From NCBI GenBank assembly GCA_023623185.1, contig JAMNXV010000037.1, positions 1-32,600 of the forward strand: a stretch of 32,600 nt of DNA. The letters run 5' to 3'. Every line of letters begins with the position of its first letter. Position 1 is the first letter of the stretch. This DNA comes from Bacillota bacterium. Its GTDB lineage: Bacteria > Bacillota > Sulfobacillia > Symbiobacteriales > Symbiobacteriaceae. The notes beneath the pieces are model-generated. The model was not told the DNA's origin and ran no database searches. It saw nothing but the letters and a program-made list of their open reading frames with translations. Below are positions 1 to 6,991 of the stretch, piece by piece. The position numbers and the translations under genes were made by a program.

Positions 1-1376
1 GTCGATGCAGATGACCGGATAGTCAGGCGGAAGGAACGTGGCGAGGCTGTGCCCGAGCACGCTGCCGATGTTCTCTTCCAGGACGACGATGATGGGCAGG
101 CGGCGCTCCACCAGTGGCTGGAGCCCCTGCACCAGCCCCTCCGCCAGGTTGCGCACCTGGTGGAAGCGGGGGTGGTGCAGCCCCGGGAACGTTATGGCCA
201 TCGGCTGATCGAGGTCCTCTTCGCCGTTGGCGAACCAGGAGAGCCCCTCGCGCACGGATGCGGCGATGTCGGCAGCCGGGGCCAGCGGATCAAAATTCGG
301 TGGTTTGACCATGGGCACGTTCTGGAGCGGGAGCAGTTTGTCGGCGTGCAGGAAGATGGTGGAGCCGCTGAGCTCCAGCACCTCCATGCCGGCGCCGATG
401 ACGGTGGCACCGTCTCCGGCGGCTCACGCAGCGTGAAGGTCTGGCACGTGGGTCCGACCCTGAGGGCGTCGGCCAGCATGGGGCCGAAGTCCCCGTACTG
501 GATCACCTCAGTCAGCGACCGGCGCTCGGTGGACTTGTACAGTTCCCGGCCGGTTCCGCCCGAGAAGGTCACCACATCGGCCCGGATGGGGGCCGATGGC
601 GGCGCCCCGATGAGCAGGGCCTGTGCCATGTCGGATTCCGCCCGACCCTGGATCAGCTCGTGCAGTCCCTGCGCCATGCCGGAGCAGAGCGTCCAGAGCG
701 TCTCGGGGTTGGCGGGCTGGCCCTCCTCGATCTGCAGCCCCAGGATCTCGGCCGCCCGCCGGGCGGGAGGCGAGATGCCGACGATGCGGGCGGTGGCGGG
801 ATCGATTCGGACCAGGCGGCCGCCGACGTGGGCGCAGACGGTGGCCTCGACCTCACCGGCGACGAAGAGCGTGCCGTTGGTCGTACCGCCGCCCACGTCC
901 AGGTTGAGAACCCGCAGGTTCTGCTCCTTGGAGAGCGCAGCTGCGCCGCTGCCCCGGCCGGCCAGGATGGCCTCGAGCTGGGGTCCGGCCGTCGCCACCA
1001 CGAAGCGGCCGGCATCCTCAGAAAGCTGCTCGATCACCGCCCGGGCGTTCCGGCGCTGCGCCGATTCGCCGGTGATGATCACGGCACCCGAGTCGACGCT
1101 GCCCCAGGTGATGTTGGCCTGCCGGAGCTGCTCCCTGACCCAGGTGAAGATGGCGTCGCTGTCCAGCGTGCTGTGGTCGATGAGCGGCGTGAAGATGACC
1201 GGGCTGCGGTAGAGCACCTCGCGGTCGATGATCTCCACCGACGCCATCGCGTGGACGCCTCCCAGCTGAGCCGTGGTCAGCCGGCTGACGATCAGGCAGG
1301 TAGATGTGGTGCCGATGTCGATACCGATGCTCGTGATGGTATCACGCACGGTTCCGTCGACATGCGTCTTGGGCAT
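1..1376 (-). pseudogene. eutA: EutA, ethanolamine ammonia-lyase reactivating factor; frameshifted and cut by the window edge
   Basis: EutA is an actin/Hsp70-fold ATPase that reactivates adenosylcobalamin-dependent ethanolamine ammonia-lyase (EutBC) by exchanging damaged cofactor. The N-terminal part shows phosphate-binding motifs GIDIGTTST (about residues 18-26), LDVGGGTTNGT and TFSGGTGREL. Homology runs to about residue 323 (LREPPETV) and then changes frame: at 406-410 one base appears to be missing. In the -1 frame the protein continues as TVIGAGMEVLELSGSTIF and on to the left edge, where it reads LPPDYPVICID. Left as it is, the ATG-started frame runs to 192 with a nonsense tail. The frameshift may be real or a sequencing error; the sequence beyond it is well conserved, so any inactivation is recent. 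It lies downstream of the ANTAR regulator, behind an antitermination leader. eutB and eutC would be expected further left. Confidence 0.88.
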
Positions 1377-3007: not shown

Positions 3008-3034
3008 GGGCTCCCCGCCGCTGAGGGGGAGCCC
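3008..3034 (+). promoter_or_regulatory. 9-bp hairpin just before the ribosome binding site of the selenoprotein gene
   Basis: GGGCTCCCC and GGGGAGCCC form a perfect 9-bp stem with a 9-base loop. It ends a few bases before the AGGAGG that serves the GTG start at 3052. Its position suggests a post-transcriptional or attenuation role, but it lacks a T-run, so it is not a normal terminator. Confidence 0.45.
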
Positions 3035-3051
3035 CTGAGGAGGAACACGGA

Positions 3052-3723
3052 GTGGCCATGCTTTCCGCTGCCCAGCGCCGGCAGGCGAAGGAGCTGTTTG
3101 CCGAGCACCTCCCGGCGCCGGTGCAGGTTCTTTTTTTCTACGCCGATGCCTACGCGCCGTCCACCGCTGCCGCAAGAGCACTGTTCGATGAGCTGGTGCC
3201 CCTTTCGGACGGGAAGATCCGGGTCAAGGCCATGACCGGGCCGGAGGGGCGGGCGGAGGCGGCCCGCTACCGGGTGGAGCAGGCCCCGGCGCTCGTGCTG
3301 CTGGACGAGGGCGGCCGCGATGCCCGCATTCGTTTCTACGGCGCGCCGCTGGGCTACGAACTCATGGTCCTGCTGGAGGACCTGATCGACGTCTCGCGCG
3401 GGGCGACCCGCCTCTCTGCGCCGGCCCGCGCCTTGATCCGGGCGATCGACGCGGACGTGGTCATCCGCGTCTTCTCCAGCCCCACGTGACCCTGGTGCCC
3501 CCAGGCGGTTCGCCTGGCGCACATGGCGGCCATGGAGAATCCCCGCATTCTGGCGTACGCTGTGGACGCGGCCGAGTTCCCCGGGCTGGCCGGCCGGCAC
3601 GGCGTCCGTTCCGTGCCTCACACCGTCATCGACGGACGGAGGCAGGTCGCCTTCGCAGGCCGCTACCCCGAGGCGCAGTTTCTGGCCGAACTGCAGCGGG
3701 CTACGAGCCCCCCTGCCCGGTAG
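3052..3723 (+). CDS. Glutaredoxin-like protein disulfide oxidoreductase, probable selenoprotein (UPWC; TGA codon 146 read through)
   Basis: The frame from GTG 3052 (AGGAGG eight bases upstream) is open to 3723 except for one TGA at 3487-3489. Read through, it gives 223 residues, the usual length of the double-thioredoxin-fold PDO family. The N-terminal half is a redox-dead thioredoxin fold: where the first CxxC would be it reads YADAYAPS. The C-terminal half has FSSPT-[TGA]-PWCPQAVRLAHMAA, then a cis-Pro loop SVPHTVI (Pro189). The TGA thus sits exactly on the first Cys of the catalytic CxxC, giving Sec146-Pro-Trp-Cys149. A stem-loop with a GGU apex begins six bases later. Conservation on both sides argues against simple decay. 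Likely role: cytosolic thiol/disulfide exchange. It overlaps the 3' end of convergent dsbA by 23 bases. The alternative is a nonsense mutation or sequencing error. Confidence 0.82.
3495..3522 (+). promoter_or_regulatory. Candidate bacterial SECIS element
   Basis: Directly after the in-frame TGA (3487-3489) the mRNA can form GTGC/GCAC (3495-3498 with 3519-3522), a small 2x1 internal bulge, then CCAGGCG/CGCCTGG (3501-3507 with 3511-3517), closed by GTT, or GGTTC if the last pair opens. The apical G is 18 bases past the TGA. Known bacterial SECIS elements place a short G-containing loop about 16-37 bases after the UGA, with GGU in E. coli fdhF, so distance and loop both fit. The stem also encodes protein, so selection on RNA is inferred. 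Confidence 0.7.
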
Positions 3724-4417
3724 TCTGGCCCGCCGCGGCCTGAACCGCATCGATGACGTCCAGGAAGGATCGGAGACGGAGAAGTTCGCCGTTGACCAGG
3801 TAGGAGGGCGTGCCCGTGATGCCGGGGGTGCCGTAGGCCTCGGTGTTGTCGGCCAGCACCTTGTCGCGGTGGGTCTTCCTGTCCATGCACTCGTTGAAGG
3901 CCTGGGTGTCAAGCCCCAGCTCCCGGGCGTACTGCTTCATCGCGTCGCGGGTCCACTTCTGCCCGTGGCCGGTCTGGTTGGCGAAGAGCAGGTCGTGGAA
4001 CGCCCAGTAGTACCCCTGGTCCGCCGCGCACTCGACGGCCTCCGCGGCGTTGAGGGACGTGTCGTCAGGATCGATGACCAGCATGTGCTTGCGGACGTAG
4101 CGCACGGTGCCGTCGCTCACCAGCTGCTCGATGTGGTCTCCCAGCGCCAGGTTGGCCTGCATGCAGGCGGGGCAGCGGAAGTCGCTGAACTCCACCAGCT
4201 CGACCGGCGCGTCTGCGCTGCCCAGGACGTTGCGTTCGCCCCCCCGCTCCTGATCGGTGAGGATGACCTCCGGCAGGGTGATCTCGCCGAGCCTGCGGGC
4301 CGTCGCGTTGCTCGCAACGATGAGCGCTGCGGTCACCACGACGGCGATGCCGGCGATCCACCAGAGGCTTCTGTCCTTCTTGCGGCCGGGGCTCTTGCCT
4401 CCCTTGGACTTGGACAT
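3701..4417 (-). CDS. Membrane-anchored DsbA/BdbD-like thiol:disulfide oxidoreductase
   Basis: 238 residues. A basic N-terminus is followed by one membrane segment (about 19-36, WWIAGIAVVVTAALIVAS), then a DsbA-fold domain outside the membrane. The catalytic motif is CPAC (residues 82-85, in FSDFRCPACMQANL), and the cis-Pro loop is near the C-terminus (GITGTPSYLVNG). An inserted helical domain lies between. This is the architecture of Gram-positive BdbD, which oxidises exported proteins. The ATG at 4417 has AAAGGAG at good spacing; a longer upstream frame exists but lacks such a site. The partner membrane quinone reductase (BdbC/DsbB) is not nearby. The 3' end overlaps the selenoprotein PDO gene tail to tail. 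Confidence 0.88.
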   Translation of the reverse strand: MSKSKGGKSPGRKKDRSLWWIAGIAVVVTAALIVASNATARRLGEITLPEVILTDQERGGERNVLGSADAPVELVEFSDFRCPACMQANLALGDHIEQLVSDGTVRYVRKHMLVIDPDDTSLNAAEAVECAADQGYYWAFHDLLFANQTGHGQKWTRDAMKQYARELGLDTQAFNECMDRKTHRDKVLADNTEAYGTPGITGTPSYLVNGELLRLRSFLDVIDAVQAAAGQTTGQGGS

Positions 4418-4449
4418 CGGGACGTCGCTCCTTTGGGATAGTTTGTCCC

Positions 4450-4479
4450 ATTGTAATAGAACATTGGCATGATACACAA
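4450..4479 (-). promoter_or_regulatory. Candidate promoter of the dsbA-like gene
   Basis: On the minus strand, TTGTGT (4479-4474) and TACAAT (4455-4450) are separated by 18 bases, 33 bases before the dsbA start. The -10 matches five of six consensus bases; the -35 is weak. Confidence 0.4.
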
Positions 4480-4786: not shown

Positions 4787-6991
4787 ATGACAGGCGGAAT
4801 GAACCGACGCGCGTTCCTGAAGCTCTCGGTTGCCGCCACGGCGGCTGCGGGGGCGGCCGGCGCCGTCATAGCCGGCGAACCCGGCAGTTACGTCAGTGGG
4901 GGAGCCGCCCCGGCGCACGTGGAACCCGACACGTGGACGTACTCCACCTGCGGTTTCTGCGGGACCGGCTGCGGCATCGAGATCGGCACGAAGGACGGCC
5001 GTCCCGTGGCGATCCGCGGGACGAAGGGGTATCCGGTAAACGACGGGCTGCTCTGTGCTAAGGGCATCTACCAGTGGAAGACGATCACGGCTCCCGACCG
5101 GGGCAAGCACCCGCTGATCCGCAAGGATGGGAAGCTGGTGCGGGCATCCTGGGACGAGGCGCTTACCGCGATGACCGATAAGCTGAAGCAGCTCCTGGCC
5201 GACCACGGCCCGGAGTCGATCGCCTGCTACAACACCGGCCAGCTCTGCATGGAGGAGTTCTACACCCTTGGAAAGCTGATGCGGGCCGGGTTCCGCACGC
5301 CGAACCTGGATGGCAACACCCGCACCTGCATGGCCTCGGCCGTGGTGGGCCACACGCGCTCCTTCGGCACCGACGGCGCCATCGGGGCGTACGCAGACAT
5401 CGAGGCGGCCGAGGTCATCCTCATCTCGGGCTCCAACATGGCCGAGTGCCACCCGATTCTCTTCGGCCGGGTGGTGAAGGCGGTGGAGAAGGGGGCGAAG
5501 CTGATCTGCGTCGACCCCCGCCTCACCCAGGTGAGCCGGCTGGCGACCATCAACCTGGCCATCCGGCCGGGCACGGACGTGGTGCTGCTCAACGCGATGG
5601 CCCACGTCATCATCCGGGAAGGGCTGATCGACCGGGCCTACATCGACGCCCACACCACCGGCTACGAAGCGCTGGAGCAGCACCTGCGGAAGTACACGCC
5701 CGAGTACGCCGCCGGGATCTGCGGCGTGCCCGCCGGGGACATCGAGGCCGCCGCCCTGCTCTACGGCCGGGCGGAGCGCTCCCTCTCCATGTGGGTGATG
5801 GGCATCAACCAGTCGGTGAACGGCACCATCGCCAACAACTGCTTCCACAATCTCAACCTGATCCAGGGCAAGATCGGCAAGCCTGGCTGCGCCTCCTTCT
5901 CCATCACGGGCCAGCCGGCCGCAATGGCCTCCCGGGAGGTGGGCGGCTCCTCCACGTACCCCGGCTACCGGGCCATCGGAAACCCGGAACACCGGGCCGA
6001 GATCGCCGCGCTCTGGGGGGTGGACCCGGCCACGCTGCCGGATAAGTCTCCGGCCATCACCGAGATCATCGACGCGATCCTGGAGGGCAAGATCAAGGCC
6101 CTGTGGGTGATCTGCACCAACCCCATCATGTCGCTGCCCGACCAGAACCGGGTGCGCGAGGCCCTGCAGAAGCTGGAGCTCCTCGTGGTGCAGGACGCCT
6201 ACGAGACGGTGGACACCGCCGAGTACGCGCACATCTTCCTGCCGGCCTCGCTCTGGGCGGAGAAGAGCGGTATTATGGTCAACTCCGAGCGGCGGCTCAA
6301 CCTGCTGAAGCCGGCGGTCGCACCGCCCGGAGAGGCCCGCACGGACTTCGAGATCTTCCTGGATGTCGCGGACCGCATGGGCTTCGGCCACCTGTTCCCG
6401 TACCGCACGACCGAGGAATGCTTCGAGGAGATCAAGCGGGTGACCAGGGGCCGGCCCAACGATTACTCCGGCGCCACCTACGCCCGCATCGAGGCGAACA
6501 AGGGGCTGCAGTGGCCCATCCCCGACGAAAACTCCACCGGCACCCCCCGGCTCTACGCCGACGGGCGGTTCAACACGCCGGACGGCCGGGCCGTGCTCTG
6601 GGCGGTGGACCCGATTGAGCTGCCCGAGCTTCCCGACGAGGAGTATCCGTTCAACCTCAACAGCGGCCGGGTGCAGGAGCACTACCACACCGGCACCAAG
6701 ACCCGCAAGGTTCCGGAGCTGAACCACCTGGTGCCCACGGCCTACGTGGAGCTGAACCCCCGGGACGCCGAGGCCCTGGGCGTACAGTACGGCGACCGGG
6801 TGCGTATCGAGAGCCGGCGGGGTGAGATCGAGGCGAAGGTGGTCGTCACCTCGCAGGTGGCGCCGGGCTCGTGCTTCGTCCCGATGCACTTCAACGAGGG
6901 CCCGGTGAACCGGCTGACCGTCTGGGCGGTCGACCCGTTCTCCAAGGAGCCCAACTACAAGCAGCAGGCCGTGCGCCTGCGCAGGGCGTAA
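4787..6991 (+). CDS. Tat-exported molybdopterin oxidoreductase (DMSO-reductase superfamily, NapA/Nas-like catalytic subunit)
   Basis: 734 residues. A twin-arginine signal (NRRAFLKLS, Arg7-Arg8) and an Ala-rich hydrophobic stretch predict export of the folded enzyme. A [4Fe-4S] site is formed by Cys55, Cys58, Cys62 and Cys90. The molybdenum ligand position is Cys181 (NTRTCMASAVVGHTRSFG), close to NapA and assimilatory nitrate reductases and unlike the Ser of true DMSO reductase or Sec of many formate dehydrogenases. Also seen are SGSNMAECHPILF and the C-terminal molybdopterin dinucleotide-binding domain (LNSGRVQEHYHTGTKTRK). The GGGGG ribosome site fits the ATG at 4787. It heads an operon with an Fe-S subunit and a DmsC-like anchor, so it is a quinone-linked respiratory complex facing outward. 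Substrate not provable: nitrate is plausible; an S- or N-oxide or an oxyanion is possible. No TorD/DmsD chaperone gene is adjacent. Confidence 0.85.
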   Translation: MTGGMNRRAFLKLSVAATAAAGAAGAVIAGEPGSYVSGGAAPAHVEPDTWTYSTCGFCGTGCGIEIGTKDGRPVAIRGTKGYPVNDGLLCAKGIYQWKTITAPDRGKHPLIRKDGKLVRASWDEALTAMTDKLKQLLADHGPESIACYNTGQLCMEEFYTLGKLMRAGFRTPNLDGNTRTCMASAVVGHTRSFGTDGAIGAYADIEAAEVILISGSNMAECHPILFGRVVKAVEKGAKLICVDPRLTQVSRLATINLAIRPGTDVVLLNAMAHVIIREGLIDRAYIDAHTTGYEALEQHLRKYTPEYAAGICGVPAGDIEAAALLYGRAERSLSMWVMGINQSVNGTIANNCFHNLNLIQGKIGKPGCASFSITGQPAAMASREVGGSSTYPGYRAIGNPEHRAEIAALWGVDPATLPDKSPAITEIIDAILEGKIKALWVICTNPIMSLPDQNRVREALQKLELLVVQDAYETVDTAEYAHIFLPASLWAEKSGIMVNSERRLNLLKPAVAPPGEARTDFEIFLDVADRMGFGHLFPYRTTEECFEEIKRVTRGRPNDYSGATYARIEANKGLQWPIPDENSTGTPRLYADGRFNTPDGRAVLWAVDPIELPELPDEEYPFNLNSGRVQEHYHTGTKTRKVPELNHLVPTAYVELNPRDAEALGVQYGDRVRIESRRGEIEAKVVVTSQVAPGSCFVPMHFNEGPVNRLTVWAVDPFSKEPNYKQQAVRLRRA

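Follow-up and report, generated by a model that had tools for sequence, protein, structure and literature searches.

In 2006, a selenoprotein family was reported under the name 'Homolog of AhpF, amino-terminal domain', and both Carboxydothermus hydrogenoformans and Symbiobacterium thermophilum were said to carry it (PMC1794560); this is the closest described system. Reviews from 2022 and 2026 list this family under TIGR02187 with the motif UxxC (PMC9312934, PMC13188914), and the later review adds Asgard archaea to the carriers (PMC13188914). A prediction paper from 2005 mentions Symbiobacterium; in the portion available, no entry for a protein disulfide oxidoreductase (PDO) was found. Classical archaeal PDOs carry one CxxC per thioredoxin fold and therefore two sites; TIGR02187 calls for a C-terminal CxxC or UxxC.

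We examined a PDO gene in a 32,600-nucleotide stretch of DNA (the window) from a draft genome related to Symbiobacterium. A preliminary description had proposed that the gene encodes a new type of selenoprotein. Our analysis indicates that the protein is a genuine selenoprotein of a known kind, such that the proposed decoding was right and the claim of novelty was wrong. Because the family was described in 2006, with the same bacterial genus included, the gene is a new example rather than a new type, and the NCBI name of the TIGR02187 model is already PDO_seleno_TRX. The relevant features of the gene are as follows.

3038..3043, plus strand: perfect Shine-Dalgarno sequence AGGAGG, 8 bases 5′ of the GTG start, read directly
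3052..3723, plus strand: Sec-containing PDO of 223 amino acids, assigned by matches to TIGR02187 and Pyrococcus PDO 1a8l
3052..3390 (approximate limits), plus strand: N-terminal thioredoxin-fold unit without CxxC, from alignments
3487..3489, plus strand: UGA codon 146, predicted selenocysteine codon at the first position of U-P-W-C; located on a Cys of CPYC, with TGA kept in relatives
3496..3498, plus strand: Cys149 (TGC), the putative resolving residue of U-P-W-C and the sole cysteine of the protein
3501..3517, plus strand: bSECIS-type hairpin with a 7-bp stem, CCAGGCG/CGCCTGG, from folding and family comparison

The frame opens with GTG, contains a single internal TGA (3487-3489), and closes with TAG at 3721-3723. 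Under the standard code it yields a 145-amino acid ORF (3052-3489) and another ORF in an unrelated frame (3486-3743). When read through, the protein, of roughly 24 kDa, matches TIGR02187 at 196.5 bits, which exceeds the curated cut-off of 185 bits, with residues 8-216 corresponding to positions 4-208 of the 209-position model. Pyrococcus PDO 1a8l aligns to residues 3-217 (E = 6e-40) and places U146-P-W-C149 opposite its CPYC, with the Sec codon on the first Cys of this C-terminal motif. Thus, U146-P-W-C149 supplies the UxxC of TIGR02187. In contrast, the N-terminal unit has YADAYAPS where the Pyrococcus protein has CQYC, and therefore the two-site arrangement of the archaeal enzymes is lacking. 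In an alignment of relatives, inspected by eye, 12 of the 25 Sec forms and 5 of the 16 Cys forms also lack the N-terminal CxxC, so its loss is not tied to Sec. No signal sequence was seen in the PDO protein. These results bear out the preliminary description on its proposals of a glutaredoxin-like PDO with a full-length, 223-residue read-through frame, one in-frame TGA on the first catalytic Cys, an N-terminal fold lacking CxxC, and an expected split of the gene under standard calling.

The source genome carries the components expected for Sec insertion, whose absence the preliminary description had named as a ground for rejecting it. A tRNA-Sec scores 71.4 bits, above the gathering score, and is called by ARAGORN as tRNA-SeC with anticodon TCA (UCA). 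SelB (379 bits), SelA (604 bits), and the adjoining SelD (383 bits) all score above their cut-offs, and so selA, selB, selC, and selD are all present. The SelD protein (L015, G000:C198:2397-3329) is itself a selenoprotein with one in-frame TGA in KSGUGCK, which indicates that this genome uses Sec elsewhere.

The codon at the PDO site was examined in 61 related genomes. TGA occupies the same codon in both other genomes of the genus (69 and 68% identity), in a genome from the same family (54%) and one from the same order (46%), and in many members of the class, with TGT or TGC present in other relatives. The same-family TGA gene is also found on a public contig. Note that a single-protein query against public contigs recovered only one relative, and whole-genome searches were far more productive; a plasmid search for PDO genes returned only distant homologues (32% identity at best). 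As expected for a selenoprotein, the in-frame UGA coincides with the catalytic Cys position of homologues and is preserved among relatives.

The hairpin that follows the TGA was assessed by comparison across the family. Its stem pairs 3501-3507 (CCAGGCG) with 3511-3517 (CGCCUGG), and the apical loop GUU starts 18 nt after the UGA. The region 3487-3526 folds with a minimum free energy of -20.7 kcal/mol (z = -1.9). The structure in the window taken alone is modestly above chance because third positions are 93% G+C, with 4.5% of synonymous recodings equaling it (p about 0.045). Rfam reported no family above threshold in the window and so gives the hairpin no library support. Among relatives, at least six contiguous pairs are present in 24 of 25 distinct Sec forms versus 2 of 16 Cys forms (Mann-Whitney p 3e-7, a value that is overstated, as are the covariation statistics, because the sequences are related and not independent). 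The mean number of pairs in Sec forms is 6.56, against 3.47 +/- 0.30 in recodings that keep the protein, whereas Cys forms (3.19 pairs) are no different from their own recodings (3.37 +/- 0.35), with the simplification that the codon usage of this window was applied to all sequences. When 21 Sec forms are placed in one register, 90.5% of cells are paired versus 25-44% when the partner is slid (maximum 43.5%), and compensatory changes on both sides occur at two pairs. Two further Sec forms (L033 and L034) have an 8-pair stem with the register shifted by one base, and one (L031) is without the hairpin. The contrast between Sec and Cys forms stands despite this kinship, and we regard the family comparison as decisive. 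Thus, a conserved bSECIS-type hairpin is present directly after the UGA as a structure to which SelB is predicted to bind. The preliminary description had named close relatives with TGC or TGT and no hairpin as a pattern that would contradict it; the closest relatives instead have TGA and keep the hairpin.

We also observed that two Cys-type PDO genes with TGC (L037 and L054) keep a 6-pair hairpin like that of Sec forms, possibly reflecting a recent change from Sec to Cys, or else chance.

Three other explanations for the TGA were weighed, and all were rejected. An ordinary Cys-type PDO, with a TGC or TGT misread as TGA in sequencing or assembly, might be suspected because some relatives have these codons at the site, and because the source assembly is a draft of 226 contigs (88% complete, 1.7% contamination) with another frame disruption in the window, in the EutA-like gene. 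However, TGA independently occurs at this codon in two members of the genus, in the family member that is also represented by the public contig, and in many members of the class, and the hairpin tracks TGA rather than Cys codons. We consider such an error exceedingly improbable, and the same holds for a true stop that leaves either a decaying pseudogene or only a 145-residue N-terminal domain. Although an ORF of that length exists under the standard code, the protein is conserved past the TGA: relative to the two genus members, dN/dS is 0.18/0.75 and 0.20/0.69 downstream (a ratio of about 0.24-0.29), with 0.28/0.70 and 0.25/0.49 upstream. Selection on the protein beyond the TGA, together with TGA in relatives, makes both an error and a pseudogene very unlikely. 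Moreover, the disruption is single and falls exactly on the catalytic Cys, and the genome has the Sec machinery.

Readthrough of UGA as another residue (e.g., Trp or Cys by a near-cognate tRNA) was likewise judged highly improbable, given that the genome has a full set of Sec components, that TGA and Cys codons interchange at the catalytic position, and that the hairpin is under selection in TGA forms only. Computation established the family assignment, the placement of TGA at the catalytic Cys and the conservation of that codon, as well as the hairpin and the full set of Sec genes in the source genome. On these grounds, we favor with a probability of about 0.96 the reading that the gene encodes a cytoplasmic selenoprotein PDO whose UGA146 would be decoded as Sec via SelB, Sec-tRNA-Sec, and the downstream hairpin, as the preliminary description had proposed for codon 146.

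For this Sec-containing PDO, SelD would supply selenophosphate and SelA would make Sec-tRNA-Sec, and SelB carrying Sec-tRNA-Sec would bind the hairpin just 3′ of UGA146 to permit decoding as Sec. In the protein, Sec146 probably makes the nucleophilic attack, with Cys149 acting as the resolving thiol. The N-terminal unit, having lost its CxxC, may be structural or serve as a substrate platform. Work on archaeal PDOs (PMC7465337) suggests that a one-site PDO would act mainly as a disulfide reductase rather than as an isomerase. Such an enzyme would probably be fed by a thioredoxin reductase; none was identified beside the PDO gene.

A second Sec-type PDO paralogue resides in the same genome (G000:C72:17451-17918; L048, about 1451-1918). 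It carries T-P-A-U-P-R-C, is about 34% identical, and has a 6-pair hairpin after its TGA (arms CCAGGCC and CGCCTGG around gtg). By eye, an ORF that resembles a proton-pumping pyrophosphatase lies 5′ of it, and thioesterase-like and ThrS-like ORFs lie 3′. No second PDO match was found in the two genus relatives searched. In the Symbiobacterium lineage, the PDO may have become a one-site enzyme with a Sec-Cys pair as its sole redox center. As the source genome has a second, divergent Sec-PDO that was not found in the two genus members searched, the lineage may hold a small set of specialized Sec-dependent disulfide reductases; we give this combined reading somewhat better than even odds.

The genes that follow the PDO gene were assigned by Pfam, and the order of its neighbors is kept in both genus relatives.

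3701-4477, minus strand: DsbA-like/Thioredoxin_4 gene, convergent with the PDO gene
4787-6991: molybdopterin oxidoreductase, next after the DsbA-like gene
next, in this order: ferredoxin-like subunit, DmsC-like anchor, aldehyde ferredoxin oxidoreductase

On the other side, the similarity of an EutA-like gene (192-1376, minus strand) breaks off near residue 323, and the gene carries on in a different frame (ORF 1-387, minus strand). Its sequence is apparently frameshifted at about 387-410 (minus strand), either in reality or through assembly; in a genus relative, the corresponding frame is uninterrupted. Window positions 3008-3034, just 5′ of the Shine-Dalgarno sequence, hold a strong inverted repeat, GGGCTCCCC...GGGGAGCCC, that may have a regulatory role or act as a terminator lacking a T run. 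A similar hairpin-like repeat occurs in the same place at L020 of a genus relative, is less clear at L019, and is not obvious at L009.

These findings correct the gene model for the PDO, since standard calling would cut 3052-3723 in two. Although they add no new selenoprotein family, they back Sec use by the TIGR02187 UxxC family through independent computation, based on the hairpins of Sec versus Cys forms and on synonymous recoding. A one-site PDO also provides a convenient natural means of testing which activities of PDOs require the second site.

Among known systems, the protein is most like the 'Homolog of AhpF N-terminal domain (Grx-like domain protein)' of TIGR02187/PDO_seleno_TRX (for example, ABB15282.1), in that it matches the same model above cut-off and has Sec at the same position in UxxC. 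That family has been reported from the genus of the source genome's likely closest named relative. Compared with the family as described, the protein here has U-P-W-C and lacks the N-terminal CxxC. The single TIGR02187-type gene of one genus relative (L020 in G002) is 68% identical, has TGA at the same codon followed by the same 7-bp hairpin, shares the EutA, DsbA-like, and molybdopterin oxidoreductase neighbors, and is likewise without the N-terminal CxxC, but its motif is U-P-R-C rather than U-P-W-C. In that relative, a reverse transcriptase-like ORF (L049, 7675-9312; by eye, of the group II intron type) also separates the DsbA-like gene from the oxidoreductase gene; the window has no such ORF there. 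The PDOs of Pyrococcus furiosus and Sulfolobus (1a8l; PMC7465337) similarly consist of two thioredoxin-fold units, and their C-terminal CPYC corresponds to UPWC here. However, they use Cys instead of Sec and, unlike the protein encoded in the window, keep both CxxC sites (PMC7465337).
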